This document shows positions 25,405 through 48,684 of a DNA stretch of 64,000 nt, piece by piece. The notes beneath the pieces were generated by a model. The model was given only the letters and a program-made list of their open reading frames with translations. It had not been told where the DNA came from and ran no database searches. A program made the translations under genes and the position numbers. This DNA is from Sneathiellales bacterium (GTDB taxonomy: Bacteria; Pseudomonadota; Alphaproteobacteria; JANQFL01): NCBI GenBank assembly GCA_028277845.1, contig JANQFL010000002.1, positions 1-64,000 of the forward strand, read 5' to 3'. How positions within the stretch are numbered: the first letter of the stretch is position 1; the number at the start of each line of letters is the position of its first letter.

Positions 25405-25511
25405 GAGAATCCTCACTTGATCGCTCGGAACTGTATGATTTTGGCCGTTTGCCGCAGAGTCCCGCACGGTGTTCCACAGACGGAATTCGGCGTCATTCGG
25501 CATTGGCAAGC

Positions 25512-25552
25512 AGTATAACTTAAATTGTTGGGGTATCCAACAATTTAAGTTA
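25512..25552 (-). promoter_or_regulatory. promoter embedded in a perfect 16-bp inverted-repeat operator (hcr operon)
   Basis: A perfect inverted repeat has arms 25516-25531 (TAACTTAAATTGTTGG) and 25537-25552, with a five-base spacer. On the minus strand it contains TTGGAT (-35, 25540-25535), a 17-bp spacer, and TATACT (-10, 25517-25512), so start of transcription should fall near 25505, about 100 bp before hcrC. A dimeric repressor bound here would block RNA polymerase. The regulator is not next to it. Confidence 0.75.
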
Positions 25553-25658
25553 CGCGCCTTTTTCTTGTCTCGAAGGCCCAATGTCTGCTAACCAGACCCG
25601 CCCGCGCCGTCATCGAAGCTCGGCCCGGTTCCCGTAACCCTTTGATTTATATGGTCTG

Positions 25659-30313: not shown

Positions 30314-30318
30314 GGCAT

Positions 30319-32004: not shown

Positions 32005-32034
32005 CGCTGATCTCCTTGCCTGCCTGCGTGCGGA

Positions 32035-32772: not shown

Positions 32773-32879
32773 CAGTGCAGCACCCAGTAGCCGAACAGCA
32801 GCAGGACAACGACGATATTGACGGCCGCGCCCGAAAGCACGAAGGCATTGAAAATACCGATCCGCCGCAACCTGTTCAT
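32772..32879 (-). CDS. 35-residue single-helix membrane protein
   Basis: A short gene not recognisable by homology. It encodes MNRLRRIGIF, then a hydrophobic helix NAFVLSGAAVNIVVVLLLFG and a short tail YWVLH. The positively charged N-terminus predicts an N-in single membrane span. Its TGA overlaps the ATG of the SUMF1-like gene by one base, and it follows the periplasmic protein gene by 28 bases, so it is firmly inside the operon. The size and topology recall small subunits of respiratory complexes. Confidence 0.7.
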   Translation of the reverse strand: MNRLRRIGIFNAFVLSGAAVNIVVVLLLFGYWVLH

Positions 32880-32907
32880 CGCCGTTCTCCCAACCGCCAA
32901 TTCCGGA

Positions 32908-33642
32908 TCAGAAGGTGAAGTCGACCTTGGCCGTACCGTCGGCCTTGACCGTCACCTTGCCTTTCTTCTCGCCCAATGTGCCGTGCCACGCCTTGATGGT
33001 GTACTTGCCGGGCGGCACGTCCTTGATCTCGAACTCGCCACTGTCGTTGACCACGGCGTAGTAGGGATTGCGGGCGACGAAAACGAAAGCGTGCATGAAA
33101 TCATGGGCATCGCATTCCACCTTCATGCCGGCGCCTTTGCGCAGCTTGATCTTCTTGGTGACGATGTTGCCCTTTTCCGGCTGCGACACGTTCAGCACGG
33201 TGCGCCGGGCGCGGCCGATCAGCTCGTAGGTGTGGATGTTGTGCAGCACCGGATCCGAGTTGATGGCTTCCAGTTCGCCCTGGTTCTGCATCACGGACAG
33301 ATAGGGAATGAACTCGCAGCGTTTCTGGTCGACGGTGATCTTTTTCAGGCCGGCGGGGAACTTTTTCCCTTCCTTGACCTTGTCGAGATAGACCACGGCG
33401 TCGAGCAGTCCGCCATTGCCTTCGCGGATGAACGACACCGTCCGGTTGCCGGAGCCGCAGACTTCGGGATTTTTCGAGATCGTGTAGTCCTGCACCTTGG
33501 CCTTGGCGCTGCCGATATTGACCTTGCCGGTGATGGTGCCGCCGCCGGACACATCGATTTCCTTGTATTTGGCGGCCTGGGCCGAAACCGAGAAAGCCAT
33601 CGAGGCGGCCGCGGTCAGGGCGATTCGAGTGAATTTGTGCAT
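32908..33642 (-). CDS. periplasmic beta-sandwich / carboxypeptidase-regulatory-like protein
   Basis: A 244-residue protein with signal peptide ending SVSAQA. The mature part begins with GGGTITGKVNIG. A central cupredoxin-like stretch (VLHNIHTYELIG and KVECDAHDFMHAFVFV) may bind metal through His and Cys. The C-terminus has FEIKDVPPGKYTIKAWHGTLG, typical of carboxypeptidase-regulatory-like beta domains. The start at 33642 is chosen for the signal peptide; an in-frame ATG at 33663 lies upstream. It lies 23 bases after the HEAT-protein stop. Electron transfer or metal carriage is possible, not proven. Confidence 0.65.
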   Translation of the reverse strand: MHKFTRIALTAAASMAFSVSAQAAKYKEIDVSGGGTITGKVNIGSAKAKVQDYTISKNPEVCGSGNRTVSFIREGNGGLLDAVVYLDKVKEGKKFPAGLKKITVDQKRCEFIPYLSVMQNQGELEAINSDPVLHNIHTYELIGRARRTVLNVSQPEKGNIVTKKIKLRKGAGMKVECDAHDFMHAFVFVARNPYYAVVNDSGEFEIKDVPPGKYTIKAWHGTLGEKKGKVTVKADGTAKVDFTF

Positions 33643-33665
33643 CGTCTTTACCTCATCTCCCATGG

Positions 33666-35930
33666 TCAGATGGATGCGAAAGCGGTCCGGGTCCGGTCTC
33701 CATCCGGTCCCGTACCGTGAAGTTCTTCAAGCGCCTGAATGGCCACTTGCCAGAAACGGCGGCGTTCGTCCTGCCCCAAGGCGTCGAGGAACGCGTCCGT
33801 GGCCGCATCGGCATCGATGCCGCGCAGCATCCGGGCCGTTTCACGACCGTGATAGCCCTCTTCCTTGAAGGCGAATCCGGCCAGCAGGGGCACGTCGCCG
33901 GCGTCCTTGCGGGCGGCGATGATCTGCGCCGTCGTCAGCCGCACGGCGGAATCGGGGTCATCCAGGAACCGGGCGATACCGGTGCCCTCGTCGCCGTTGC
34001 GGGCCAGGCCTTTCAGCGACTCCATGCGAATGAAGGCATCCGTGTCGGCCAGGCCGTTGATCAGCGTCTGCGCCGCCAGTGCGTAGTTGCCATAACCCAG
34101 GGCCCGAACCAGCAACACCCGCGCGTCCCGGTTGGCCTGCCCGCGCAATTGCCCGAGCAAGGCCTCGGTCATGTCGGCCGTCAGGCCATGTCGTTTCGCG
34201 GCCAGCCGCGACAGGGAATCGGCGGCGGCGAGAACAAGGTCCTTGTCCTCCGCCCCCAGTTGGTCGGCCAGGGCTTCGGCGACACCATCTTGCGCCACGT
34301 CACCCAGAACCCGGGCGGCGAAACGGCGCACGTCCTGGTGCGGCGCGAGGGCCGCCTTGATATCGATCTTGCGCTTTTTCGGCCCCTTGCCGACGAGGCC
34401 GAGATATTCCAGATCCTCGGGCGACAACAGCGTTTCACCGTCATCCTCGCTATCGACCGCGATCGCTTCCCCGGCAGGCGACAGAATGGTGTCGAGGGTG
34501 GATGTCGGGAATGCGTCGGCATCCTCGGCATCGTCTTCCGCCGCAGTGTCTCCGGCCGAAGCGTCCTCGACGGTTGCATCGTCGTTGGCGGGTAGATCGA
34601 CAGCCTCTTCTTCCGGTTCCGGTTCGGCCACCAGTTCGCCACGCAACGCCGCCAACAATGTTTCCGTAGCCTGACCGGCAAAGCTTTCCGAACCATTGGC
34701 CAAATCGGCCAAAGCCGTCATGGTCGCCAACCGGACCCGCCGATCCTCGTCGCCGACGGCATCGATCAGCAAGCGAACGGTCCTGTCGTCGGGACTGCCG
34801 GCCAAGGCACTCAACGCGGCCAAGCGGACCTCCGCCGGCCGGCTCGTTTCGTCGGCGATTTCCGCCAAGACCGCACGGTCCTCGGGATAGTACCGCGCCA
34901 ACGCCGGCGCGGCGGCGGCGGCAATCGCGGGCTCGTCGTGCCGGGCGTGTGCATGCAATTTCGCCCTCAACGGATCGGTCGGGGCGATTGCCGTGGGCGG
35001 CACCTGCGCCATGGCGGCCAAGGCGGCGGCGCGCACGGCGACATAGTCGTCGTCCAGCAGCGCCGGCAGTTTGTCGGCGTTGGCGGCACCGATCAGGCCG
35101 ATCACCTCGGCCCGCGAGCCAGGATCGCCCAATTGCATCAGCGGCACCAAACGCGGATCGGCGGCATTCTTCTGCGCCAGGATCCGGACCGCGGCCATGC
35201 GCACCTCGGCCTCGGGGTCCTTGAGGGATTTGATCACCGCATCGTTGGCCACGCCGGCTGGCAATCCGGCCAGCACCGTCGCGGCGCGGCGGCGGCGGCG
35301 CACGTTCCTGTCGTCGAGAAATGCGATCAGGGCGTTCAGGCCTGCGTCGCCCATCCGGGGCAAGGCGCGGAACGCCACTTCGGTCACGTCCTGGCCGTCC
35401 TCGTCGTCGATGGCGGCGAGGATGTCGGGCACGGCGGCGGCTTCCTGGAACGTACCGAGTGCCTCGATCGCCTTGAGCTGCAGGTCGACCCAGTCGTCCC
35501 AGCCGCCGGCAAAGAACTCGTCGTCGTCCCAGGCGATCTCGCCGTCACGGGCGACCACGAGGCGTCGCAGCCAGGGCACGACCTCGGTGTAATTCATGGC
35601 CGTCAACGCCGAGAGTGCGGCGGTTTTCACGTCGCCGCACGGATCGCCGATCAGATTGTCCAGCAGTTGCGGCGCGGCGCGCGGGTCGAGGATCCTGGCC
35701 AACGCCGTGGCGGCGTCGGAGCGTACGTCCTCGTCCTCATCCAGCAGGCATCCGATCAGAACCGGCACGTCGTCGTTGCGGCCGATATGGCCGAGCGCCT
35801 GCACGGCATAGCAGCGGTGTACATCGACACCCTCGCGGGCGAAACCGGCCAATGTCTCACAGGCCCGGTCCTTCGCCGAGGCCGTTTCGGCGGCGCCGTC
35901 TTGTGCGGTGTTTGCGGTGGGAATGCTCAT
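33666..35930 (-). CDS. large HEAT-repeat protein
   Basis: A protein of about 754 residues made almost wholly of alpha-helical HEAT repeats, such as DDVPVLIGCLLDEDEDVRSDA and PRLVPLMQLGDPGSRAEVI. Around residues 440-520 an acidic, low-complexity linker rich in Glu/Asp/Ala separates two repeat blocks. There is no signal peptide, so it is probably a cytoplasmic scaffold. I chose ATG 35930; 35960 is possible but lacks a clear ribosome-binding site. It directly follows the molybdoenzyme gene after a hairpin, and may act as maturation chaperone for the molybdoenzyme, which has no NarJ/TorD-type chaperone here. Confidence 0.7.
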   Translation of the reverse strand: MSIPTANTAQDGAAETASAKDRACETLAGFAREGVDVHRCYAVQALGHIGRNDDVPVLIGCLLDEDEDVRSDAATALARILDPRAAPQLLDNLIGDPCGDVKTAALSALTAMNYTEVVPWLRRLVVARDGEIAWDDDEFFAGGWDDWVDLQLKAIEALGTFQEAAAVPDILAAIDDEDGQDVTEVAFRALPRMGDAGLNALIAFLDDRNVRRRRRAATVLAGLPAGVANDAVIKSLKDPEAEVRMAAVRILAQKNAADPRLVPLMQLGDPGSRAEVIGLIGAANADKLPALLDDDYVAVRAAALAAMAQVPPTAIAPTDPLRAKLHAHARHDEPAIAAAAAPALARYYPEDRAVLAEIADETSRPAEVRLAALSALAGSPDDRTVRLLIDAVGDEDRRVRLATMTALADLANGSESFAGQATETLLAALRGELVAEPEPEEEAVDLPANDDATVEDASAGDTAAEDDAEDADAFPTSTLDTILSPAGEAIAVDSEDDGETLLSPEDLEYLGLVGKGPKKRKIDIKAALAPHQDVRRFAARVLGDVAQDGVAEALADQLGAEDKDLVLAAADSLSRLAAKRHGLTADMTEALLGQLRGQANRDARVLLVRALGYGNYALAAQTLINGLADTDAFIRMESLKGLARNGDEGTGIARFLDDPDSAVRLTTAQIIAARKDAGDVPLLAGFAFKEEGYHGRETARMLRGIDADAATDAFLDALGQDERRRFWQVAIQALEELHGTGPDGDRTRTAFASI

Positions 35931-35977
35931 GACCTGTCCAGCCTGCTCAATCGGGTACATATGGAATTCTTGTCGGA

Positions 35978-36024: not shown

Positions 36025-38697
36025 TTAGATGATATCGCGTGGGGCCCACGACATGGACCGGAACGTCCTCTTGTAAGCGGATTCGCCGATCTTCTTCACC
36101 TTGGCGACACCCATCTTGTAGTTGTAGTTGCCGCTGATCCAATCGACGATTCGGCCTTCAATGGCATTGGCCGGCTGTTCGGGATGCAGGAAGTCCATGT
36201 AGATCACGCCTTTCTTGATGTGGCGCGTCACATGGGCGACCCCGGTTACGGCCGCGCGGGTCAGTTCGACATTGCCGTTCTTCATCTGACCCGAGAAGCT
36301 GTAATCCGCCCCTTCGACCCCGACGATGGTTTCCTTCAGGCTTGGTACCCGGTCGGAATAGACCATCACCATGTCGCCGCTCTCGATGCCGCGCGACTTG
36401 GCGTCATCGGGATGGATTTCGACATAGTTTTCGGGCCAACGCTGGACAACGTACGGACGGCGCCGGTCGTCGAAACCGGATTGCCACCGTTCGTTGGTCC
36501 GGCCGGATGTCGCCCACAGCTCGTCGCCCTTCGGGTTGAGCCATTCCCAGTAATCCGAGAACAGCGACCACGGGGACTTCTGAATGTTGCAGCGTCCGGT
36601 CTGGCTGTTGAAGTGGGTGAGCTTCTTGTTGTACATGTTCGCGCCCTGCGGCCCGTTGGGGTCGAGCTTGCGCTGCGTGTCATGCAGGCGCTTGGTCCCC
36701 ATCAGGGAGCCATCGTCCTTCATGAACACCGGCCCCTGGATACCGTTGGTGCCGAATTCACCCAGTTTCTGATGCAGGGTCTTGCCTTCGCGGTGGGCGG
36801 CGACCTTGATCATGTGGAAGTCCTTGCGGCTGCCACGCGAGAAGCGCGAGGCTTCTTCCGCGACGTCGTTCGAATTCTTCCAATCAAAGCCGTCGAAGCC
36901 CATGCGCTTGGCCAGCTGTGCAATGATCCACCAGTCCGGCTTGGCGTCGCCCGGTGCATCATAGAACTTGTTGTACAGCCGCAAGCGCCGCTCGCCGTTG
37001 GCCCGCATGAACGTCTCCTCGCCCCAGGTGGCGGCGGGGAAGATGATGTCGGCATAGCGGTTGCCGATGGGATCGACCAGATAGATGTCCTGGTTGACCA
37101 CCACCATGCCGCCCGAGTCGGCGCGGGCCTTCAGGGTATCGATGATATCCTGCTTGTCGTAGGACCGGACCTGATGCGGGTTGGCGACGGTGAGTTCCTC
37201 GAAACGCTGGGCGAGGACCTGCGAGCCGCACATGGACTGGATCCATGTGGTCCCGATGACGTGAGCCAGGCGGGTATGACCCGACATGGTCCAGGTATCG
37301 GTATCCAGGGCGCGGCGGCGCCGGCCCGGCAGCTTCATCGGCGACTTGTTACGCGGATACTTGCCGCCACGCTGGCCGCCACGCTGGTGACCGCCGGCCC
37401 GGCCGATAACCTGACCGGGACGTCCACCGGCGCCGCAGATGATGCCGAGCGCGGAGATGGCCTGGGTGTTGCCCGTATTGTTGGACCAGTAGAAGCCCTT
37501 CTCGATCATGATCGAGGTTTTGGGCCGCTTGCCGCCCTGGGGCTTGGCCAGCCATTCGGCCGCCGTGCGGATCTTCTTGGCGTCGACGCCGGCCACCTTG
37601 GCGGCGTTCTCGACCTTGAACTCGTCCTGGGCCAGGAGCCACTTCTTCCAGTCCTTGAAACCCTTGGTCTGGAACTTGCCCCAGGTAGTGCGCCACTGCC
37701 AGGGCGTGTTACGCGTGCCCTGGCCGAAGCCCGACGACGAACCCCACTTGTCGTTGACCCACTTCTTGATCCACTCGCTGTCTTCCCAGCCGTTTTCCAC
37801 GATGGTGCGGGCGATGGCGTTGACGACCAGCAGATCGGTTCCGGGGGTGACGTCGAGCCAGAGACCGCCGTTTTCCTCGGCATAGGCGACGCCGGCCGTG
37901 CGGCGCGGCACCATCAGGATGGCCTTCTGACCGTTCTGAATCCCCTTCATGATCCACTGGGTCCACAGGATCGTCTTGGTCTCGTACGGGTCGGTGCCGC
38001 AGATGAACAGGGTTTCGGCGTTCATCCAGTCCTCATATGAAGGACCGAAATTGTCGAAGCCCGCATCGCGGAAGCCCGGCGTCGAGGAGACGTCCGACGG
38101 CGTGTCGTGGAAGGTGAAGTTGGCCGTGTTGATGTGACGCAAGGCGTATTTGGAAATGGCGTAGGTGTTCTCGATGTACTGGTACGAGAAGGTTTTGACG
38201 CCATAGGCATTGTCGCCGTGCTTCTTGATCACGTGCTTGCCGACCTCGGCGGCCACATCCAGGGCGAACTCCCACGGAACGGGCTGCAGGATGCCGTAAA
38301 TGCGCATCATCGGGGTTTTCAGCCGGTCGCGGGTGGGAGTCTGCGGATTGTAGCATTTCTGCGCAATGCAGCCGCCACGCAGGCTGGAGTCACCGTCCGT
38401 GTTGACGTACTTGGTGTCCTTGTCGGGGATGATGACCACGTGGTGCGGCTCGCCCTTGTGCAGCACGACGTTGTGCTGGTTCGGGGCGACCCAGGGGCCG
38501 AGCGGCGCGACCGGGAAGTCTTCGCCGAAGGCATTGGTGTCGGCACTGGCGCCGCCGTTCTTGTTGCCGGCCACCGGCCAGCGGTAGACCTTGTAGCCGC
38601 AGGCGACAATGCAATAGTCGCACGCGGTGGTGATGACGTCCGCGTCCTTCGGAGGCAGCGGAACGTTGGATTCGGGGATGTAATAAGGTGTTGCCAT
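36025..38697 (-). CDS. idrA: arsenite-oxidase-family molybdoenzyme, probable iodate reductase catalytic subunit
   Basis: An 890-residue DMSO-reductase-superfamily enzyme related to AioA. The N-terminal cluster site is Cys26-x2-Cys29-x3-Cys33, and Ser104 (in DSSLRGG) lies 71 residues after Cys33, the position where AioA has Ser instead of a fourth Cys, so a [3Fe-4S] cluster is expected. It has no Tat signal; export would rely on the Rieske partner. Two dihaem peroxidase genes plus a Rieske subunit reproduce the idrABP1P2 set of iodate reducers. By hand alignment with remembered AioA, the arsenite ligands around His195/Glu203 look replaced while the Arg/His of RAGGHQ remain. A novel oxyanion substrate is possible. 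Confidence 0.72.
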   Translation of the reverse strand: MATPYYIPESNVPLPPKDADVITTACDYCIVACGYKVYRWPVAGNKNGGASADTNAFGEDFPVAPLGPWVAPNQHNVVLHKGEPHHVVIIPDKDTKYVNTDGDSSLRGGCIAQKCYNPQTPTRDRLKTPMMRIYGILQPVPWEFALDVAAEVGKHVIKKHGDNAYGVKTFSYQYIENTYAISKYALRHINTANFTFHDTPSDVSSTPGFRDAGFDNFGPSYEDWMNAETLFICGTDPYETKTILWTQWIMKGIQNGQKAILMVPRRTAGVAYAEENGGLWLDVTPGTDLLVVNAIARTIVENGWEDSEWIKKWVNDKWGSSSGFGQGTRNTPWQWRTTWGKFQTKGFKDWKKWLLAQDEFKVENAAKVAGVDAKKIRTAAEWLAKPQGGKRPKTSIMIEKGFYWSNNTGNTQAISALGIICGAGGRPGQVIGRAGGHQRGGQRGGKYPRNKSPMKLPGRRRRALDTDTWTMSGHTRLAHVIGTTWIQSMCGSQVLAQRFEELTVANPHQVRSYDKQDIIDTLKARADSGGMVVVNQDIYLVDPIGNRYADIIFPAATWGEETFMRANGERRLRLYNKFYDAPGDAKPDWWIIAQLAKRMGFDGFDWKNSNDVAEEASRFSRGSRKDFHMIKVAAHREGKTLHQKLGEFGTNGIQGPVFMKDDGSLMGTKRLHDTQRKLDPNGPQGANMYNKKLTHFNSQTGRCNIQKSPWSLFSDYWEWLNPKGDELWATSGRTNERWQSGFDDRRRPYVVQRWPENYVEIHPDDAKSRGIESGDMVMVYSDRVPSLKETIVGVEGADYSFSGQMKNGNVELTRAAVTGVAHVTRHIKKGVIYMDFLHPEQPANAIEGRIVDWISGNYNYKMGVAKVKKIGESAYKRTFRSMSWAPRDII

Positions 38698-38709: not shown

Positions 38710-39321
38710 TTAACCCTGCAGGTTGTCCGCGCGGCCGAAAATCAGGCCGAACACGCCAACTGCGTAAATTTTGTCGCCTTCCAACTCCAGCAGCACCTGC
38801 GGCAGGCTTTGGTATGCCTGACCGGAGATCAGAATCCCGTGACGGGTCAGATCGTAGGTCGACAGATGCAACGGGCAGGCGCCCAAGGACTTGGTATCGG
38901 CCTTGTAGGAACCGCTGAGGTCACCGCCCTGGTGGGTACAGGCATAGTTGAACGCCACCACGTCGCGGTTCGGTCCGATGCCGCCACCGGCGGCCTCGCC
39001 CATCTTGACGATCATCGATTCCGAATAGGCACCGTCGTCCGGGTATGTGAAGTCGACCGGTTCGTCCTGCTTCAGTTCGCTCAGGTTCGCGATGAACTTG
39101 CGCGGATAGCTGGCGACCACCGCCGGGACCTGCTGCGCATGCGGCGTGCCCGGATTGATCATCACCATGACGGTCGCCGTGGCCGTGGCCGCACTCGAGG
39201 TCAGCAGGAACTGACGCCGGTTCATCAGGCACTTGCCGTGCCCCTTGGATTTCACCGCCGGCTTGTCTTGCGGCAAGGCCGGGTCGGTTTTGGCCAAGGC
39301 TTCTGTAGTAAGTGTCGTCAT
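38710..39321 (-). CDS. idrB: Tat-exported Rieske [2Fe-2S] subunit, probable IdrB
   Basis: A 203-residue small subunit that passes electrons to or from the molybdoenzyme. A Tat signal MNRRQFLLTSSAAT lies at residues 33-46, after an extra N-terminal stretch. The Rieske ligands are Cys128-x-His130 (CTHQGG) and Cys149-x2-His152 (CPLH). The extra cysteines that form the disulfide in many Rieske proteins are missing (Gly133 and Leu151), which usually lowers the redox potential. It lies 14 bases after the peroxidase gene and 12 bases before the catalytic subunit. The Tat signal probably exports both subunits as a folded pair. Confidence 0.8.
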   Translation of the reverse strand: MTTLTTEALAKTDPALPQDKPAVKSKGHGKCLMNRRQFLLTSSAATATATVMVMINPGTPHAQQVPAVVASYPRKFIANLSELKQDEPVDFTYPDDGAYSESMIVKMGEAAGGGIGPNRDVVAFNYACTHQGGDLSGSYKADTKSLGACPLHLSTYDLTRHGILISGQAYQSLPQVLLELEGDKIYAVGVFGLIFGRADNLQG

Positions 39322-39335
39322 TGTCCTAGCCTCTC

Positions 39336-40490
39336 TTAATCCGTTTCCACGGGGAGTGGTGCATACGGCGGAAGTTTGGGCGCCTTGACTTCGATTTCGG
39401 GGCCGGAATAGGCCTCGACGAACGCAACCAGGTCGTCCATTTCCTCATCCGTCAGGCCCAAGGGCTTGATCAGAGATGTCTTGTTCTTGCCCATGGTGCC
39501 GTCGGTGAAGTCGTTCGAACCGCCACCGGCGTTGTAGAATTCGACCACTTCACGCAGATCCCAGAACGCACCGTTGTGCATGTACGGCGCCGTGTAGGCG
39601 ACGTAGCGCAGGGTCGGCGTGCGGAACTTGCCCATATCGCTCTTCTGCTTGGTGCGATAGTAGAGGCCCGCGTCGTCCTTGATCTTGCGGTACATTTCCT
39701 GGGTCACGCCCTTGGCGTACTGCTCGTAGCGGAACGTGATCTGCGCCAGGCCGTCCTCTTCCCAACGCTCTGCCGGCGGAACGCCCAGGTTGTAGTAACG
39801 CTGATCCGTCGTCAGGGCGCCGTTGTGGCACTCGATGCAGTTGGCCTTGCCGTTGAACAGCTTCATGCCGCGCACCTGCTGTTCGTCCAGCGCGCTCTTG
39901 TCCCCAGCCAGGTATTTGTCAACCGGCGTATCCTTCTGCACCATCGTGCGTTCCCACGCGGCGATGGCCCGCCAGGCATTACCGAGCTTCGGCCATTCGT
40001 CGCCGAAGATCTGCTTGAATGCCGCACGGTATTCCGGAATGAACGCCAACCGGGCTTCCATCACCTCGGCCTCGCCGTTACCGGCGACGGCGCCGGACGC
40101 TGCCGATTTCGCTTGCTTCTCGAGCGAAGACGCGGAGCCGGCCCAGAACAGTTTGCCGAGATAGGCCGAATTGACGATGGTCTGGCTGTTGCGCCAGTGC
40201 ACCGTGGCCGGATAACCGCGCGACAGGGCGTCGCCGAAAGCCCAGCCCTGGCTCGGCTCGTGGCACGACACGCAGGCCGTCGAGGCGTCACCGCCGAGAC
40301 GGGGATCGAAGAACAGCTTCTTGCCCAGCTCGATCTTCTCGGGCGTCTGCGGGTTGTCGGCCGGAACCGGCGGGTCACCCAGCGGAGCCAACGGCGGGTT
40401 GGTGTCCGCCAGCGCACCGGATGCGGTGATCTGCGCTACGGCGACGATCGCGGCCGCGGCGAAGATTGTGGTTGTCTTTCCCATTTTCAT
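39336..40490 (-). CDS. dihaem cytochrome c peroxidase/MauG-family protein (IdrP-like, second)
   Basis: A 384-residue periplasmic protein with a signal peptide ending ASGALA. Two haem c sites are present: CVSCH (Cys73-His77) and CIECH (Cys218-His222). Conserved peroxidase features include RNSQTIVNSAY after the first haem and the late TAPYMHNGAFWDL. In iodate reducers, IdrP1 and IdrP2 are thought to remove hydrogen peroxide or intermediates made during iodate reduction. Which of the two genes corresponds to P1 is not settled. An in-frame ATG two codons in is an equally good start. Confidence 0.82.
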   Translation of the reverse strand: MKMGKTTTIFAAAAIVAVAQITASGALADTNPPLAPLGDPPVPADNPQTPEKIELGKKLFFDPRLGGDASTACVSCHEPSQGWAFGDALSRGYPATVHWRNSQTIVNSAYLGKLFWAGSASSLEKQAKSAASGAVAGNGEAEVMEARLAFIPEYRAAFKQIFGDEWPKLGNAWRAIAAWERTMVQKDTPVDKYLAGDKSALDEQQVRGMKLFNGKANCIECHNGALTTDQRYYNLGVPPAERWEEDGLAQITFRYEQYAKGVTQEMYRKIKDDAGLYYRTKQKSDMGKFRTPTLRYVAYTAPYMHNGAFWDLREVVEFYNAGGGSNDFTDGTMGKNKTSLIKPLGLTDEEMDDLVAFVEAYSGPEIEVKAPKLPPYAPLPVETD

Positions 40491-40505: not shown

Positions 40506-41639
40506 TCAATTGCGGGCATCGCGCCAGTTTTCGATAGCCGGATACTCAAGCGGGATTTTGTCCTTCCAGACATAATCCGGACCGGTCAGCGGATCGCCCG
40601 ACAAGGCTTCCAGGAAGGCCACCAGATCGGCGCGCTCTTCACTGCTCAGCCCAAGCGGCTTGATGCGGGGATCCTTGTTGACGTCGTTGCCGCCGCCGCG
40701 GTTGTAGAAATTCACGACGTCCTTCAACGTGGCCAACATGCCGTTGTGCATGTACGGCGCCGTGTATTTCAGTTCGCGCAGGCTCGGCGTCATGAACTTG
40801 CCGATGTCGCTGCCGTCCGACTTGTGAGTGCGGATATGGGCGCCGACGTCGCGGCGGATGTTCATGATGTTTTCGATGCCCTGGAACAGGCCGAAGGCCA
40901 CATAGGTGGTGTGGCGGACCGGGTTGCTCCAGATTTCCGGATTGTTCGGCACACCGGTGTTGTGTGCCTTGTCGTCGCTGAACAGCGGACCGTTGTGGCA
41001 TTGGGCGCAGCCGGCCTTGCCCTTGAACAGCTCGAAACCGTTCTGGGCGGACACCGACATGGTGCCCTTGTCGAACGGCGCGTTGCGCGACGTCAGGGTC
41101 TTCATAAACTCCGGTAGGGCCTTGCGGACGGAGCCGTTGGAGGGCTCGCCATAACCGGCGTCCTTGAACATCTTGACATAGACCGGGTCCTGCTTGATGC
41201 GCTCCTGCATCAGACGCATGTCCATGTTCATGATGTAGGTCTCCGTGATGTTCTCACGGGTAACGTCGTTCAGGTTGGTGCCGACGCGGCCGTCGTGGAA
41301 CCAGGCCGCCTTGTAGGCCGTGTTGATCAGCGACGGCGTGTTGCGCCAGCCGTCCGATCCCGGATACAGGGCCGACAGCGGCTTGCCGTCGGAGAAACCC
41401 TTGTTCGGGTCATGGCAGGTGGCGCAGCTGATCGCGGCGTCTCCCGACAGGCGAACGTCATAAAACAGACGCTTCCCCAGCGCCGCCTTCTTGGCGTCGA
41501 CCTTGAGCGGTTTCACGGGCCCGAAGGCCATGTCGTCCGCAGCGAAGCTACCGGTTGTCGGCCAAGCCAACAGTCCGGCTGACGCAATCGCTGCCGCGGC
41601 GACGAAGCCTTTGGCGTGCGTGCTTATTTTGAAGGTCAT
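40506..41639 (-). CDS. dihaem cytochrome c peroxidase/MauG-family protein (IdrP-like, first)
   Basis: The first gene of the long reductase operon, 377 residues, with a signal peptide ending TTGSFA. Haem c sites are CATCH (Cys72-His76) and CAQCH (Cys211-His215). It shares with the next gene the RNTPSLINTAY-type segment after haem 1 and the C-terminal TAPYMHNGMLATLKDVV, so the pair probably arose by duplication. It starts about 45 bp from the predicted sigma-54 transcription start. A role in peroxide removal beside the molybdoenzyme is inferred from known idr clusters. Confidence 0.82.
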   Translation of the reverse strand: MTFKISTHAKGFVAAAAIASAGLLAWPTTGSFAADDMAFGPVKPLKVDAKKAALGKRLFYDVRLSGDAAISCATCHDPNKGFSDGKPLSALYPGSDGWRNTPSLINTAYKAAWFHDGRVGTNLNDVTRENITETYIMNMDMRLMQERIKQDPVYVKMFKDAGYGEPSNGSVRKALPEFMKTLTSRNAPFDKGTMSVSAQNGFELFKGKAGCAQCHNGPLFSDDKAHNTGVPNNPEIWSNPVRHTTYVAFGLFQGIENIMNIRRDVGAHIRTHKSDGSDIGKFMTPSLRELKYTAPYMHNGMLATLKDVVNFYNRGGGNDVNKDPRIKPLGLSSEERADLVAFLEALSGDPLTGPDYVWKDKIPLEYPAIENWRDARN

Positions 41640-41693: not shown

Positions 41694-41709
41694 AGCAATT
41701 TCCATGCCA
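41694..41709 (-). promoter_or_regulatory. sigma-54 promoter of the reductase operon
   Basis: The minus strand reads TGGCATGGAAATTGCT, matching the consensus TGGCACG-N4-TTGCW with the invariant GG and GC in register. Transcription would start near 41683, giving a leader of about 45 bases before the first peroxidase gene. No competing sigma-70 promoter was noticed. Sigma-54 promoters need an NtrC-type activator, and one is encoded 6 kb away. Confidence 0.8.
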
Positions 41710-41867: not shown

Positions 41868-41902
41868 AAAAACAATGCCCCGGCCGATGGACCGGGGCAT
41901 TG
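41868..41902 (-). terminator. terminator of the membrane cytochrome operon
   Basis: An 11-bp stem (CAATGCCCCGG 41873-41883 with CCGGGGCATTG 41892-41902) and an 8-base loop. On the minus strand it is followed by five T (41872-41868). It begins 29 bases after the trihaem cytochrome stop and separates the two sigma-54-controlled operons. Confidence 0.93.
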
Positions 41903-41930: not shown

Positions 41931-44213
41931 TCAGGTGTTTTCGAAGCGTTTGCGCTGGCGGCGGGCGGCGCCGAAAAACAGCAGCCCGGCGATCAGGCCG
42001 CTGGCGCCGGTCGACCCGTAGACCAGGGCGGGTTCTTCGTCGGGTTCCAGCAACAGCCAGTACCACGACGTCATGGTGTGCCGTCCGCCCTTCTCGCCTG
42101 CAATACCGTCCCAGTTGGCAAAGGCGATCGGTATGTAACGGCCCGCTTCGAACTGCAGGTCGTTGGCATCGTCCGAGGTTAACGGCCGCTGCATAACGAC
42201 CTGCCATTGGCCGTCTTTCCACGTGCCGGTGGACTTGAGACCCGTATCGCCTTGCCGTGGCACCGGCGGCTTGTCGGGTCCCTTGGCATCCAGCACCACC
42301 GCCATCTCCGGCACCGCCGGTTCGGCGCTGGGCGCGCGCCAATACCACATGTTCACCGCGTGGCCGGGATCGCCGTGACGGAACCAGGGCTTTTCGCTGG
42401 TGGTGGGGATTTCCGCCGGAAACTGCACCGCGAGGGCATCCGGCGTCGGGTCGACGTCGTCGAGACGGTACATTTTCTCCAACTTGTCCCCGGGCACCGA
42501 ATAGGTCCGGTCGTCGACATCGAGGCGCAGGGCCACGTCGGTCTCGTTGAACAGGGCGCGCACGGTGATGCGATCGTTCAGCGAGAAAAAAAGACGCGGC
42601 TCCTTGATGATATTGGGCGCCAGGGCGAATGTGATCGGCACGGCCTGCTCCCAGGCCGGATCGTCCGGCGTCGCCGGCAGGGCGCCGTCGATGCGGATCC
42701 CACGCAACACGGTTTCGCCGCCGACCAGCGGCACGGCGTTGTCGCGCAGCGTCATGGCATAGTTGGAGACATGCCAGCGGTCCTCCACCGACATGGTGGT
42801 GGTGTGTTCGGGCATGGGTGTCGAACGGATACCGGTGCTGACGCGCTGGAACACGTCGCGGGCATCGGAAGTGGCCCGCCAGGTTTCCGGCCGAGTCAGG
42901 TTGCGCGGCCAGATGCGGTCCTGCCAGTCGTCCTTCAGCCGCTTGCCCGACGTAATGTTGCCGCGGCCTTCTTCGCCATGGCACTGCACGCAGGCCTTGA
43001 CGAACAGCTCGCGTCCCTTGGCGATGGATTCGGCGGAGCTTTCGACACGGGTTCCTTCGTCGATGGGCAGAAGTTCGAGTTCTTCCTCTTCCCAGCCGCC
43101 GAACACCTTGATGTAGTGGATCAGCGCATCCACCTCGGCGTCGTTGAGGATCGTCTTCCAACCCGGCATGGACGTGCCGGGCAGCCCGTCGCGGATGGTC
43201 GCGCGCAAGTCGTCGTCGGAGGGAAATTCGTTATCGGCATGGGTGGTCTTGTACTTGAACGTACCCAGCGTGAAGTCACGCGGTTTCGGGTACATGAACT
43301 CCGCGGCGGGGCCCAGGCCGTCGCCGTCCTCGCCGTGGCAGTGAGCACAGCGCTTCATATAGAGCGCTTCAACCGCTTCCTCGTCCAGGGCGCCGCCTTC
43401 GGATGCGGCTTCCGACGATTCCTCGGCTGCGGCCGGTTCGGCACTGCCTTCCTCCAGTTCCCACGACCGCGGCACATGGCCGGTGTAGTCGTAGAGGAAC
43501 AGGATGATCTTCCAGACCTCGTCCTCGCTCAGCATTTCGTGCCAGACCGGCATGGCAGAGGCCCATGGCGCGCCTTCGCGGGGCAGGCCGGGCGCGCCGG
43601 TGGTGATGCGCCAGAACAGGTAGCTTTCCTGCAGCTGGGCGATGGTGCCGACATCCTGGAAATTGGCCGGGCGCGGATTGAAACCCTCGCCGAAATGGCC
43701 TTGCCCGTCGAGCAGGTCGCCGTGGCAGTAGATGCAGTTCTTGTAGTAGAGCTCGCCGCCCTCGGCGACCAGTTCGGCGAATTCCTCGCTGCCCTCTTCC
43801 GCCTGCTCGCGCAACGGATTGGTCAGGCTGAGCAGATCATAGGACTTGCCGTAGACCCGGATCGACGACGGCGGCGCGGGGTGCACCGTGCGCAATTCGA
43901 TGGGCGCCGCGGAATCCGGCTTGACCATGTCGTAGGTGAAGGCGCCGACGCCGCCGACCACGACCAGCAAGGCGATAACGCGCGGGATCAACAGCTTGGG
44001 ATGGCCAAGCAGGGCCCGGATAGGTTCGGCCATGCGCTGCGCCGTCGGTTCGTGGAAGGTGCCGACCATCAGAATGCCGATGACGCAGAACACCATGTAC
44101 TGGATCAGCAGCGACTGGGGGATCGGCGGCCAGATCACGTATTTGAAGACGGTGTACAACCCCACGGCCACCAGGATGGACAGGAACAGGGGATGGGTGA
44201 CGGTCCGGATCAC
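41931..44213 (-). CDS. membrane-anchored trihaem cytochrome c fused to ethylbenzene-dehydrogenase-type haem domain
   Basis: A 760-residue protein. Three membrane helices lie near residues 10-27, 35-53 and 77-93. Three c-type haem sites follow: CIYCH (160-164), CAHCH (289-293) and CVQCH (408-412), separated by an acidic Glu/Ala linker. Residues about 520-735 resemble the EB_dh haem-b-binding domain seen in gamma subunits of ethylbenzene dehydrogenase-type enzymes (RLFFSLNDRITVRALFNETD). A last helix near 738-752 gives a cytoplasmic tail. The start overlaps the dihaem gene stop (ATGA). It probably carries electrons between the membrane complex and periplasmic redox partners. Confidence 0.78.
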   Translation of the reverse strand: MIRTVTHPLFLSILVAVGLYTVFKYVIWPPIPQSLLIQYMVFCVIGILMVGTFHEPTAQRMAEPIRALLGHPKLLIPRVIALLVVVGGVGAFTYDMVKPDSAAPIELRTVHPAPPSSIRVYGKSYDLLSLTNPLREQAEEGSEEFAELVAEGGELYYKNCIYCHGDLLDGQGHFGEGFNPRPANFQDVGTIAQLQESYLFWRITTGAPGLPREGAPWASAMPVWHEMLSEDEVWKIILFLYDYTGHVPRSWELEEGSAEPAAAEESSEAASEGGALDEEAVEALYMKRCAHCHGEDGDGLGPAAEFMYPKPRDFTLGTFKYKTTHADNEFPSDDDLRATIRDGLPGTSMPGWKTILNDAEVDALIHYIKVFGGWEEEELELLPIDEGTRVESSAESIAKGRELFVKACVQCHGEEGRGNITSGKRLKDDWQDRIWPRNLTRPETWRATSDARDVFQRVSTGIRSTPMPEHTTTMSVEDRWHVSNYAMTLRDNAVPLVGGETVLRGIRIDGALPATPDDPAWEQAVPITFALAPNIIKEPRLFFSLNDRITVRALFNETDVALRLDVDDRTYSVPGDKLEKMYRLDDVDPTPDALAVQFPAEIPTTSEKPWFRHGDPGHAVNMWYWRAPSAEPAVPEMAVVLDAKGPDKPPVPRQGDTGLKSTGTWKDGQWQVVMQRPLTSDDANDLQFEAGRYIPIAFANWDGIAGEKGGRHTMTSWYWLLLEPDEEPALVYGSTGASGLIAGLLFFGAARRQRKRFENT

Positions 44214-45064
44214 TGGGCGTCCCCCTTGGCGTCCAGGGTCATCAGGTAATCGATAATCATATCCAGCTCGCTGACCCGCATCTGGTCGCCGAAATCGTCC
44301 GGCATCATGTCGGCCTCGAAGCCTTCGGCGATGGTGGCATTGGGATCGAGGATGGCTTCGCGGATGCCGTCGCGGCCCAGCTTGGCGCCCAGGCTATGCA
44401 AGGGCGGTCCGGCATCGGCACCCGAGTCGTTGACGTCGTGACAGGCCGAACAGGTGTATTTGTCGAGCGCCACCTGGGCGCTCTCGGCCGGGCCCTCTTC
44501 TTCCCCGTCCTCATCATCCCCGGCCACGTCCTCGCCGTCATCGCCGGTCGGCAGGGGCACCGTGACATCCACGCCGGTACGGTCCTGCAGGAAGGCGATC
44601 AAGGCGTTCATCTCCACCTCCGACAGGGAAATCGGCGCAGCGTCGACGGCGGGCATCGGACTGACCGTATCGTTGGTGCCCTTCTTGCCGAAACCGGGCA
44701 CCACGTATGCCGATGTGTCGACCATAGATTCGCGGAGATAGATTTCGATGGCCGCCGCACCCTCTTCACCCTTGGCTTCGCCCTCGTAGTTGGCGTTGCC
44801 GAGGCGGTCCGCCCAGGTTTCGGCCAGGTTGAGCTTCAGCAGATCCGGCGCACGGCCCAAATCGTTGTGGCACAAAGTGCATGTACCCTTGCCCGAAAAC
44901 AGCCGCTCGCCCCAGGCGATCATGGCCGGCATGTCGAGCCCGTCCGCGGCTACCGGCGCCTCATCCGTAGGCGGGTCCGATTGCACCTGCGGCAGGATGT
45001 TGGCGAACAGGGTGTAAGCCAGCAACACGACGACGCTGAAGGCGAGAACCCGGACCAGGGTCAT
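44210..45064 (-). CDS. membrane-anchored dihaem cytochrome c
   Basis: A 284-residue protein with a single N-terminal helix (residues 3-22, LVRVLAFSVVVLLAYTLFA) acting as an uncleaved anchor. Two haem c sites, CTLCH (Cys62-His66) and CSACH (Cys205-His209), belong to two cytochrome c domains joined by a very acidic Asp/Glu linker at about 173-192. Met ligands are plausible in SPMPAVDAA and ADMMPDDFG. The ATG at 45064 overlaps the stop of the bd-like gene, and its own stop overlaps the trihaem start. The longer open frame upstream is a shadow of the bd-like gene. Confidence 0.82.
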   Translation of the reverse strand: MTLVRVLAFSVVVLLAYTLFANILPQVQSDPPTDEAPVAADGLDMPAMIAWGERLFSGKGTCTLCHNDLGRAPDLLKLNLAETWADRLGNANYEGEAKGEEGAAAIEIYLRESMVDTSAYVVPGFGKKGTNDTVSPMPAVDAAPISLSEVEMNALIAFLQDRTGVDVTVPLPTGDDGEDVAGDDEDGEEEGPAESAQVALDKYTCSACHDVNDSGADAGPPLHSLGAKLGRDGIREAILDPNATIAEGFEADMMPDDFGDQMRVSELDMIIDYLMTLDAKGDAQ

Positions 45065-46827
45065 GACCCGGCTCCCGCGGCCGGTTGCACGGCGGCCTGC
45101 CTCTGGGGCACCTGTTTCGTCGCGCCCAATTGGCTGAGCCAGAAGATGAACACGATCAGCGCCATGAACATCAACGTAATGACGGTGATGATGTTGCCCG
45201 CCTCGCCGATGGTCGGAATGTACGCCTCGGGCGAGTTGTCCTTCATGATCGTGTAGACGTGCCAGTGGGTGCGCAGGCTGGAACGGATATAGCCCATCAG
45301 CGCCATCAGCCAGGTGAACGCCACCGGCAGCACGAACAGGGCGTATTGCGAACGCACCGTCATGCGGCCCCAGTTGACCTGGGTCTTGGTGGCGCCCTTG
45401 AGCATGAAGCCGTCGATGATGGCGGCGAAGACGATGATCGACAGGGTCGTCACCACCTGCGGCACCGAGGCGCCGACCTTGTAGACGGTGGGCGTGATAT
45501 AGCCGTAGATGCCGGCGGCGATGATGTTCAGACAGCCCACAACGTAGAGCGCGATGATCGCCGCGTTGCCGGCCTTGTACCAGGACACCGTCGGCACCCG
45601 GCTGGAGCGGTAGAACATCTGGAAGGACAGGAAGGTGAACACCAGCATAAGGTTTACGGCCGTATTCTTGGCCGGCATGATGCCAAGCGGGCCCAGCACC
45701 TTGTGGTGCGAGCCGCCCATCAGTTGCAGTTCCTGGGGTGTCAGAATCAGCGAGTGGGGCGTCACCCAGACCAGGAAACCGCCGACCATGACCACGGCGA
45801 TGTATTTCACGTAAGGTGCGTAGGACGCGCCGCGGTCGGTGCGTCCCAAACCGCACCACAAATAATAGTTGGCGGCCAGCAGGATCGAGCCGATTAGCAC
45901 GGCCTGGATGATGAACAGCCAGGCCAGCACGCCGCCCATGGCTGTGATGCCCATTTGCTGGCTATAGGCGTAAATCTCGGCCATCAGCCAGTAGCCGGCG
46001 AACGGCAGCGGCAGAAACCCGACCACGGCAATGATGTTGGAGGTGTAGCCCATCCAGTCGTAATGGGCCCTCAAATCCGCACTCTTTTCGCTGAGGAACC
46101 GGTAAGCCGCGTAGGCACCGACGATGGCCCCGCCGTAGGCGATATTGGCCAGGAAGCGGTGCAGGTTGAGTGGATTCCACAGCGGATTGCGGGTCGCCTC
46201 CCACACGGTGCCGGTGACGGCACCGTCGGGGCCGACGCCCGCCGGCGACATCATGAAAGCCGCCCAGGCGTTGGCCACGAACAGCAGGGCCAGGCCGACC
46301 GTATTGAGGATCAGCCCGATGGTCATGTGGTACCACTTCCTGTCGCCGTAGCGCAGGGCGTCCCACGAATAGTAGTAGACGTAGAGGCAGACCGATTCGA
46401 GGCCGAACAGCAAGGCGTAGATCAGCGTCTGGCCCTTGAAGACCTTGAGCAGGTAGCCCATCAGGTGCGGATAGAACAGGAACAGGGCGATCGCCAAGCC
46501 GCCGCCGGCCAGGGCGGTGAACGAATAGGCCGCCATCGAGATCTTCATGAACTCGTGGGCCATGTTGTCGTAGCGGTCGTCGCCGCTCAACACGCCGGCC
46601 AGTTCGATACACAGCACGAACAGCGGCACGGCCAGCACGAAAGCGGCGAGGAACAGGTGCATCTGCGACAGACCCCACACCAGCGTGCGGGCGCTGAAAC
46701 CCTTGATCGCCGGATAGTCGGCCCGGGTCGGCTGCGGCGCCGGATCGGCGGCGAACACCAGGTCCGGCAGTACCATCACGGCAAAGGCCATCGCCAGGAC
46801 GGCGAATGTCAAACGGACCGGGTTCAT
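45061..46827 (-). CDS. cytochrome bd-like multi-helix membrane protein
   Basis: A 588-residue integral membrane protein with about fourteen hydrophobic helices and an N-terminal signal-like segment ending VFAADPAP. The region QMHLFLAAFVLAVPLFVLC, with His57, resembles the first helix of cytochrome bd subunit I, which binds haem b595; LHRFLANIAYGG resembles the helix carrying the b558 ligand. The quinol-binding Q-loop signature of CydA was not found, and the protein is longer than CydA. Similar bd-like proteins occur in Nitrospira-type genomes. With downstream c-type cytochromes it probably exchanges electrons between quinone and periplasmic haems rather than reducing oxygen. Function is inferred. 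Confidence 0.68.
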   Translation of the reverse strand: MNPVRLTFAVLAMAFAVMVLPDLVFAADPAPQPTRADYPAIKGFSARTLVWGLSQMHLFLAAFVLAVPLFVLCIELAGVLSGDDRYDNMAHEFMKISMAAYSFTALAGGGLAIALFLFYPHLMGYLLKVFKGQTLIYALLFGLESVCLYVYYYSWDALRYGDRKWYHMTIGLILNTVGLALLFVANAWAAFMMSPAGVGPDGAVTGTVWEATRNPLWNPLNLHRFLANIAYGGAIVGAYAAYRFLSEKSADLRAHYDWMGYTSNIIAVVGFLPLPFAGYWLMAEIYAYSQQMGITAMGGVLAWLFIIQAVLIGSILLAANYYLWCGLGRTDRGASYAPYVKYIAVVMVGGFLVWVTPHSLILTPQELQLMGGSHHKVLGPLGIMPAKNTAVNLMLVFTFLSFQMFYRSSRVPTVSWYKAGNAAIIALYVVGCLNIIAAGIYGYITPTVYKVGASVPQVVTTLSIIVFAAIIDGFMLKGATKTQVNWGRMTVRSQYALFVLPVAFTWLMALMGYIRSSLRTHWHVYTIMKDNSPEAYIPTIGEAGNIITVITLMFMALIVFIFWLSQLGATKQVPQRQAAVQPAAGAGS

Positions 46828-46946
46828 TGCGGCATCAGCAGCGCGTTCACTGGCAGCCCCTGCCCTTCCATGATAAGAAAATCGATACCGTAGAAGTAGG
46901 CGGTCCACCCCACCAACGTCGCGGCCAACACGACCCACTGATTCAT
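46824..46946 (-). CDS. 40-residue membrane protein preceding the bd-like protein
   Basis: A short gene encoding MNQWVVLAATLVGWTAYFYG followed by IDFLIMEGQGLPVNALLMPQ. It has one clear transmembrane helix. Its TGA overlaps the ATG of the bd-like gene (ATGA), which strongly supports that it is translated. Small single-helix subunits are common in bd and cbb3 oxidases (CydX, CcoQ). Sequence similarity to those is too weak to name it. Confidence 0.72.
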   Translation of the reverse strand: MNQWVVLAATLVGWTAYFYGIDFLIMEGQGLPVNALLMPQ

Positions 46947-46961
46947 TTCGTTCCCCACATG

Positions 46962-47084
46962 TCAGTGCACCGCCGGCGCGCCGTGGTCGTAGATCAACAT
47001 CCACCAGAAGAACACCAGCACCGCGAGCAGGGTGATCCAGAAGACAGCCGGGCCGAGAACCGTTGCCTTGGGTTTGTCGTTCAT
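46962..47084 (-). CDS. 40-residue membrane protein, first gene of the cytochrome operon
   Basis: A short gene encoding MNDKPKATVLGP, then a hydrophobic helix AVFWITLLAVLVFFWWMLIY and the tail DHGAPAVH. The start at 47084 follows GGGAGAG; the open frame runs further up but crosses the sigma-54 promoter. It is the first gene after that promoter, with about 40 bases of leader, and ends 15 bases before the next small gene. A small subunit of the bd-like complex is the likeliest role. Confidence 0.72.
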   Translation of the reverse strand: MNDKPKATVLGPAVFWITLLAVLVFFWWMLIYDHGAPAVH

Positions 47085-47139: not shown

Positions 47140-47155
47140 TGCAAATCGCGGGCCA
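47140..47155 (-). promoter_or_regulatory. sigma-54 promoter of the membrane cytochrome operon
   Basis: The minus strand reads TGGCCCGCGATTTGCA, matching TGGCACG-N4-TTGCW at all but one position. Transcription would start near 47128, about 45 bases before the first small gene. Together with the reductase-operon promoter it gives two sigma-54 promoters with the same architecture. Confidence 0.8.
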
Positions 47156-47289: not shown

Positions 47290-48684
47290 TCACTTGCCCA
47301 TTCCGCCGTTGACCGCCATCCTGGGTTTGAGGCCGTATTCCTTGATCCGCCGGTCCAGTTTCGGCCGGCTGGTGCCGAGGATTTCGCAGGCCTTGCCCTT
47401 GTGCCAGTCGGTGCTCTCCAAAACGCTGAGGATGTGCTCGCGTTCGATATCCTTGAGCGACAACGTGGCGGAGTCCGAAGCCAAGCGATCCTCGTTGGCA
47501 AGCTCCCCATCACTTTCCGCCGCGCCTTCCAACATTTCGTCGGGTAGCTGTGCCAGATGCAGGATGTCGCCTTGCGACATGACGACAGCCTTGATCAGAA
47601 CGTTTTCCAATTGCCGCACATTGCCCGGCCAGGCATAGCCGACAAGACGGTCCATCACGTTCCCGGGAACGCGACGTATGCTTTTGTGGTTTTCCTTGTT
47701 GATGCGCTTTAGCAGATGCTCGACCAGGAGCGGGATGTCCTCCTGGCGTTCACGCAGCGGCGGCAAGTCGATGCTGAACACGTTCAAACGGTAATAAAGA
47801 TCTTCGCGGAACTCCCCGTCCGTCACTTTCTGAGCCAAATCCACATTGGTGGCCGCGACAAACCGGGCCGAACTGATCTTGGCGTGGGTCCCGCCCACCG
47901 GCGTGTATTCCCGCTCCTCAAGCAGCCGGAGCAACTTGCCCTGCATGCGCGGCGACAGTTCACCGATCTCGTCGAGGAACAGTGTGCCCTCGCCGGCCAG
48001 GTCGACCTTGCCGCGTCGTGCATTGACGGCACCGGTGAAGGCGCCTTTCTCGTGGCCGAACAAATCGCTTTCCAGCAGGGTCTCGACAAGCGCGGCACAG
48101 TTGACGGCGACGAAAGGCTTGTCGGCGTCGGGTCCGGCCTTGTGGATGGCCCGGGCCACCAGTTCCTTACCGGTGCCGGATTCGCCCAGGATCAGCACCG
48201 TCACGTTGCTCTGCGACACCATGCCGATGGACTTGAACACGTTTTTCATGGCCCGGGTGCGGCCGATGATGGTGGCCGCTTCGTCGCCGCCTTCGACCAG
48301 CAAGGCGTCGCCGTCGCTTTCCACGCGCATGCGCAGGGCTTTGTCGACGGCGGCCTCCAAATCATCCAGATCGATAGGTTTGGTGATGTAATCGATGGCC
48401 CCGCCTTGCATGGCGGCAACGGTGCTGTCCAGGTCATGGAACGCGGTAATCATGATCACCGGCACATCGGGCCGTTCCCGGCGGATATCCGTCAGCAGGG
48501 ACAATCCATCACGGCCCGGCATGCGGATATCGGACACGACGACATCGATGGGGTTGGCTAACAGAACATCCAGTCCCTCGTCCGCGCTGGCGGCGGTTTT
48601 GACATCGAAACCGCTGCTGGAAAAGTGCAGTTTCAGCGTACGGGAACTGGACTGATCATCATCAATGATCAAGATATTCGGCAT
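47290..48684 (-). CDS. NtrC-family sigma-54-dependent response regulator
   Basis: A 464-residue activator. The receiver domain spans residues 1-115 with phospho-acceptor Asp52 in [10 protein letters not shown]. The AAA+ domain has Walker A GESGTGKE (167-174), the sigma-54-contacting GAFTGA loop (214-219) and the LFLDEIGEL Walker B. A Fis-type helix-turn-helix is at the C-terminus ([20 protein letters not shown]). It is encoded between the AsmA-like gene and the cytochrome operon, and the sensor kinase is two genes upstream. It is the obvious candidate to drive the two sigma-54 promoters nearby. Confidence 0.92.

Follow-up and report, generated by a model that had tools for sequence, protein, structure and literature searches.

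In Nitrospira, Nitrospina and anammox bacteria, genes for a cytochrome bd-like (bd-like) protein, a dihaem cytochrome c, a monohaem cytochrome c and an alternative NxrC (alt-NxrC) lie next to those for nitrite oxidoreductase (NXR), and this module has been suggested to act "like an alternative complex III" or to interact with quinone (PMC3578206, PMC6606698). The anammox bacteria with a related module are strict anaerobes (PMC3578206). Bd-like proteins of the OR-N branch of the bd superfamily have been proposed as cytochrome c-fed O2 reductases (PMC10839748); we use the name OR-N as in papers citing Murali 2021, and statements on this branch follow those secondary accounts. In the literature searched, transcript levels in Nitrospira were the only experimental result on any member of the module. 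Iodate reductase (Idr) is reported to be encoded in clusters without a quinone oxidoreductase of their own, with electrons reaching Idr from the quinone pool via cytochrome c (PMC8692401). Here we analyze a stretch of 64,000 nucleotides (nt), called the window below, from a Sneathiellales bacterium (Alphaproteobacteria; GCA_028277845.1, contig JANQFL010000002.1, positions 1-64,000, forward strand). It contains a five-gene operon of the bd-like/alt-NxrC kind, with a predicted iodate reductase cluster directly downstream. At about an even chance, we propose that the operon encodes a bd-like (OR-N)/alt-NxrC membrane complex serving as a dedicated electron-transfer partner of the periplasmic iodate reductase.

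A fused bd-like/alt-NxrC operon

The operon occupies 47084-41931 on the minus strand. Its tightly coupled genes, identified from the open reading frame (ORF) list and the sequence, and the hairpin at its end are as follows.

46962..47084, minus: sm1, 40-aa single-helix protein (MNDKPK...FFWWMLIYDHG...); ORF, homologues in relatives
46824..46946, minus: sm2, 40-aa single-helix protein (MNQWVV...IMEGQGLP...LLMPQ); ORF, homologues, ATGA overlap with the bd-like gene
45061..46827, minus: bd-like membrane protein, 588 aa, signal peptide and 13 helices; PF01654 (50 bits), AlphaFold2, structural matches
44210..45064, minus: membrane-anchored dihaem cytochrome c, 284 aa (CTLCH62, CSACH205); ORF, Pfam, motifs, ATGA overlap with the bd-like gene
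41931..44213, minus: 760-aa cytochrome/EB_dh fusion protein, GTG start; Pfam, structure search, model, comparison with split genes
41872..41902, minus: intrinsic terminator-like hairpin and T run; folding energy -29.4 kcal/mol, z -5.4, sequence reading

The preliminary description had recognized the five close or overlapping genes, and four of them, sm2 to the 760-aa gene, are indeed linked by three four-base overlaps. Only two of these are ATGA as described (46824-46827 and 45061-45064); the third (44210-44213) reads GTGA, GTG being the start codon of the 760-aa gene. The sm1-sm2 gap measures 15 nt, and GGGGA precedes sm2.

A search of GTDB genomes identified 575 loci with a relative of the bd-like gene, of which the best 80 were retained. 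The gene order of the module is conserved among the relatives, in line with the earlier view of a single coupled operon. Homologues of sm1 and sm2 were found in 53 and 37 relatives, respectively, with fixed motifs across alpha- to gammaproteobacteria (FFWWLLIYxHG in sm1, FYxxDxxIMxxQGLPxxxxLxP in sm2). Both 40-aa ORFs, already suspected to be partners of the bd-like protein, are therefore true genes and not chance ORFs. The microproteins are probably small structural subunits, and we infer that the five products form one stoichiometric membrane complex. In two relatives, microprotein genes stand beside a CarboxypepD-like gene and not ahead of the bd gene (L087:15088-16200, sm1 and sm2; L105:11681-12600, sm2).

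The loci fall into two types. Those of type A combine a single bd gene with a fused gene of the 760-aa type and, in most cases, the microproteins. In type B, a second bd paralogue (about 720 aa) is present, and the monohaem and alt-NxrC parts are encoded separately. In L028, L095, L107, L189 and other two-copy loci, the second paralogue, with a cytochrome/EB_dh set of its own, lies a few kb from the first. A tree groups the window with alphaproteobacterial type A loci, in a clade distinct from both the two-copy clade and the Nitrospira copies; its branches are long, and its support comes from a quick method only.

One genome with two module sets, which we take to be Candidatus Nitrospira defluvii, has a bd copy with 49% identity to that of the window. 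Its first set consists of this gene together with dihaem, monohaem and alt-NxrC genes, with a second bd gene 5.5 kb away; its second set is the NIDE0901-like region. The two sets match the published bd-like_3/alt_NxrC_2 cluster and the NXR region of Nitrospina and Kuenenia. The window thus shares its complete gene set (bd-like, dihaem c, monohaem c, alt-NxrC with EB_dh) with the bd-like_3/alt_NxrC_2 cluster of Nitrospira, Nitrospina and anammox bacteria. That cluster has separate monohaem and alt-NxrC genes, two bd copies (in Nitrospira) and NXR as partner, whereas the window has a fused gene, one bd copy, two microproteins and IdrABP1P2 as partner. NXR was also considered as a partner here, and rejected, because the type II DMSO reductase alpha family gave no match above cut-off in this genome.

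The kind of module is therefore already known, as a bd-like/alt-NxrC module of the OR-N branch as that branch is described in the papers named above, and the "new type" of quinone-cytochrome c oxidoreductase suggested by the preliminary description does not hold, since the same gene set was published beside NXR (PMC3578206, PMC6606698). The quinone-related role suggested with it is not new either, although the assembly is indeed unlike standard oxidases. New are the fusion of monohaem and alt-NxrC parts, the single bd copy, the two conserved microproteins, and an iodate reductase cluster as partner instead of NXR. The literature searched, which left most subscription journals outside its scope, contained no fused one-copy form with two microproteins and a tie to Idr and sigma-54 sites.

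Five CxxCH motifs account for the five c haems expected from the preliminary description: the two of the dihaem protein, and CIYCH160, CAHCH289 and CVQCH408 of the 760-aa protein. Residues 1-254 of the latter comprise three N-terminal helices and the monohaem cytochrome c, which weakly matches ActE of alternative complex III (6f0k_E, E-value 3e-4). The rest is alt-NxrC-like, with two c haems, an ethylbenzene dehydrogenase-type (EB_dh) domain at about 502-722 and a C-terminal helix (728-759). The two halves are separate genes in the two-copy loci and in N. defluvii. The EB_dh domain, also expected earlier, is matched by Pfam with 65.5 bits (residues 518-712) and matches EbdC and NxrC structures in the PDB; in the predicted model, this beta domain sits between the c-haem part and the C-terminal helix. 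In three relatives (L041, L045, L047), an additional c-haem stretch separates the dihaem gene from the fusion gene.

The haem b of EbdC is ligated by Met and Lys (PMC8840923). We took the corresponding alignment columns (613/712 here) as axial ligands, with residue identity inferred from the alignment. These columns hold His/His in most type A proteins and Met/His in most type B main copies, and His/His instead of Met/Lys would be compatible with an altered, perhaps lower-potential haem b. In L041, L045, L047 and L067 both residues are replaced together (Q/Q, Q/Q, L/Q and N/Q), which supports the two acting as a pair.

The bd-like subunit has the fold of cytochrome bd subunit I. The match to Pfam Cyt_bd_oxida_I (PF01654) is limited to residues 55-300, and the hhalign match to cytochrome bd is local, covering residues 46-252 only. 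The AlphaFold2 model is confident (pLDDT 83, pTM 0.84), and the sole significant matches of this model in the PDB were cytochrome bd subunits I (Foldseek E-value 2e-8, TMt 0.59). In a profile alignment to E. coli, H57, E144, H167 and H223 correspond to H19, E107, H126 and H186, and R519 and W522 probably to R448 and W451. In E. coli-type cytochrome bd, H19 ligates haem d, E445 haem b595, and H186/M393 haem b558; E99 adjoins haem d, and E99 and E445 are O2-site residues (PMC8585947). Throughout the clade, E99 is replaced by Tyr and E445 by Ser (S516), and M393 has no alignable equivalent in the profile alignment. The helix order and the signal peptide would place H57, H223, H358, H375 and H523 close to the periplasmic side of the membrane. 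Charged, His and Trp residues of the subunit are very strongly conserved.

The protein thus resembles canonical cytochrome bd (CydAB/AppBC) in the subunit I fold and in the H19/E107/H186 equivalents. Unlike it, it has no full-length PF01654 match, no full set of haem ligands (E445 missing), no E99, no CydB in the operon and no Q-loop or GRQPW motif that could be aligned in the profile alignment, in line with the missing Q-loop of the preliminary description; it also has more helices, and partners that are c-type cytochromes. Placement in a characterised oxidase family with all oxygen-site ligands, which that description had named as speaking against its proposal, was not found, as the H19 and E107 equivalents are kept and those of E99 and E445 are not.

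As far as the OR-N family (CydAA', NIDE0901 type) is described in those papers, the protein shares its superfamily core, the H19 equivalent, the absence of a quinol loop and the cytochrome c partners, and it groups with Nitrospira/Nitrospina bd-like proteins rather than with CydA. It differs in forming a separate clade (44% identity to the OR-N1-like copy of N. defluvii, 31% to the NIDE0901-like copy) and in having no CydA' partner in the genome. A classical CydAA' pair was ruled out, as no second PF01654 gene was found in this genome. Alternative complex III is similar in its proposed role and through the weak ActE match, but a bd-type membrane protein takes the place of the polysulfide-reductase-like ActB/ActC subunits, for which the operon gave no Pfam or NCBIfam match.

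Linkage to iodate reductase

Directly downstream of the operon, on the same strand, lies an idrP-P-B-A cluster that the preliminary description had missed. It is listed here with its accessory genes, the regulator gene next to the bd operon and two promoter matches.

47290..48684, minus: sigma-54 dependent response regulator, adjoining the bd operon; family searches
47140..47155, minus: sigma-54 type -24/-12 promoter match TGGCCCGCGATTTGCA, 55 nt upstream of sm1; pattern search
41694..41709, minus: sigma-54 type -24/-12 promoter match TGGCATGGAAATTGCT, 54 nt upstream of the first idrP; pattern search
40506..41639, minus: dihaem cytochrome c peroxidase/MauG-like protein, IdrP-type; family searches
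39336..40490, minus: second dihaem cytochrome c peroxidase/MauG-like protein, IdrP-type; family searches
38710..39321, minus: IdrB-type Rieske subunit with Tat signal; TIGR02694, 118 bits, above cut-off
36025..38697, minus: IdrA-type molybdenum enzyme, 890 aa; identity to the Vibrio copy, TIGR02693 above cut-off
27642..35960, minus: accessory genes of the idr directon (HEAT, CarboxypepD-reg-like, FGE-sulfatase-like, USP/PCP_red, radical SAM/PCP_red, protoporphyrinogen-oxidase-like); family searches

An idrA-idrB-idrP1-idrP2 synteny with IdrA outside the AioA clade has been treated as diagnostic of iodate reducers (PMC8692401), and both features are found here, so that the cluster is a predicted iodate reductase cluster. 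It has the same four genes in the same order as the clusters of Pseudomonas SCT and Denitromonas IR-12. The molybdenum enzyme is 67% identical to a Vibrio copy, itself accompanied by two peroxidases and a Rieske subunit, versus about 30% to AioA, and the AioA motif SEVHGTRDMGVGE reads SSTPGFRDAGFDN. Arsenite oxidase was rejected on the basis of these identities, the peroxidase synteny and the motif. Earlier descriptions of idr islands include no quinone oxidoreductase and report poor conservation of the neighbouring genes (PMC8692401), whereas a conserved membrane module adjoins the cluster here.

The linkage is not particular to the window. The idrP-P-B-A genes follow the module in the same order in alpha- and gammaproteobacterial relatives, and among fused loci with at least 6.5 kb of downstream sequence, Ccp or IdrA was found there in 20 of 35. 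IdrA was detected in 58 of 71 module-bearing genomes, within the locus in 21 and elsewhere in the genome in 37 of the other 50. Among 289 sampled alphaproteobacterial genomes, 9 had the bd gene, 10 an IdrA-clade enzyme and 6 both (hypergeometric p 2e-8, ignoring kinship). The corresponding numbers for 274 gammaproteobacterial genomes were 12, 10 and 8 (p 3e-11, again ignoring kinship). A plasmid search with the bd protein gave no match, and none was found among viral contigs.

The two operons also share putative regulatory sites, likewise overlooked before. A looser sigma-54 pattern matched five times in the window versus 1.1 expected; a single sigma-70 promoter match equalled chance expectation. 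Sigma-54 scores of at least 10 within 200 nt upstream of sm1 were seen in 22 of 54 relatives, compared to 0.9% of background stretches; such sites are mostly missing in Rhodobacteraceae-type loci. The response regulator has a 69% homologue in the same position in L035. Sigma-54 regulators also adjoin the idr clusters of Azonexus and Thiothrix, with 40% identity to that of the window, and in Azonexus a matching site precedes idrP. Shared sigma-54 control of the bd and idr operons is thus likely.

All accessory genes except FGE recur in 27-33 of 46 relatives. The radical SAM protein with PCP_red is NirJ/AhbD-like (NirJ2), below equivalog cut-offs. Together with the USP protein, which also has PCP_red, and the protoporphyrinogen-oxidase-like protein (27642-32004), it recurs beside the module, and the three are a possible haem-modification set. 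Further away, at 21600-25581, three ORFs resemble a xanthine/CO-dehydrogenase-type molybdenum hydroxylase set, as judged from their translations. The genome carries three haem-copper oxidases (aa3-like, cbb3-like and one further); the third subunit I-like protein (L118, 562 aa) is unusual.

Possible roles of the complex

We favour an exchange of electrons between the membrane and high-potential molybdenum enzymes of the periplasm because no other role would fit nitrite oxidisers, anammox bacteria as strict anaerobes and iodate reducers under oxygen limitation alike, and in part because Idr islands were described without such a complex. The exchange would most simply be with the quinone pool. 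With quinol as presumed donor, electrons would enter at the bd-like subunit and move from its haem or haems near the periplasmic face (H57, H223) to the dihaem cytochrome and the 760-aa protein. Through its three c haems and its haem b, the latter could then reduce IdrB/IdrA, and perhaps also the IdrP peroxidases. The co-occurrence with IdrA, the conserved downstream order and the sigma-54 sites ahead of both operons argue for this role. With less confidence, we extend it to the whole clade, whose bd-like complexes may be quinone:cytochrome c exchangers for such enzymes and not oxygen reductases, working forward for iodate reductase and backward for NXR, possibly with a haem modified by the neighbouring radical SAM and porphyrinogen-oxidase-like enzymes.

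Several observations weigh against electron transfer to Idr. IdrA was not seen in 13 of the 71 module genomes, several of them incomplete metagenome-assembled genomes, and some idr clusters (Vibrio, Azonexus) have no module nearby, so that the module would not be essential to Idr in general. No quinone site is recognisable, as a Q-loop with K252/E257 could not be aligned in the profile alignment. The retained H19, E107 and H186 equivalents also occur in N. defluvii, in an OR-N1-like protein currently proposed to reduce O2, and these residues do not separate the clade of the window from OR-N1 as a presumed oxidase. The main competing explanation, somewhat less probable than electron transfer to Idr, is an O2 reductase of the OR-N branch, as known from those secondary accounts, that is fed by periplasmic cytochrome c. 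Electrons would enter via the c haems and O2 would be reduced at the bd-like core; beside Idr and at low oxygen, such an enzyme would scavenge O2 or use O2 released from iodine intermediates for respiration. The correspondence to E. coli residues extends to H126 and probably to R448 and W451, OR-N enzymes have been proposed to use cytochrome c (PMC10839748, PMC12324825), and the Pseudomonas SCT model includes O2 from hypoiodite (PMC8692401). However, the b595 ligand E445 and E99 beside haem d are replaced across the clade, the genome already has three haem-copper oxidases, a related module occurs in strictly anaerobic anammox bacteria, and the linkage is to a reductase working under oxygen limitation.

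It is improbable that the complex only serves to anchor periplasmic molybdenum enzymes to the membrane and to relay electrons, with a bd-like subunit that catalyses neither quinone nor O2 reactions. An anchor role was hypothesized for alt-NxrC with NXR (PMC6606698), and the replacement of both presumed EB_dh haem ligands in four relatives would make parts of the electron chain dispensable, but an anchor would not need charged, His and Trp residues to be conserved as strongly as they are in the bd-like subunit. We regard a chance neighbourhood, with the module as a general respiratory add-on of marine chemolithotrophs unrelated to iodate, as very improbable. The module does occur without IdrA in Nitrospinota/Nitrospirota and some Proteobacteria, and 6 of 20 sampled IdrA carriers lack it. 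The co-occurrence in two classes, the conserved adjacency and order, and the matching sigma-54 sites all speak against chance.

Implications for iodate respiration

The function of the bd-like/alt-NxrC module is a long-standing question in nitrite oxidisers and anammox bacteria, which are genetically hard to manipulate. Its tie to iodate reductase in many alpha- and gammaproteobacteria brings this question to groups with culturable members, and the sigma-54 sites predict a testable regulon. Iodate reduction influences marine iodide and, through it, atmospheric ozone (PMC11445184). The module is a candidate for the electron supply so far missing from accounts of iodate respiration, and its setting beside idr offers a route to learning what such bd-like complexes do.

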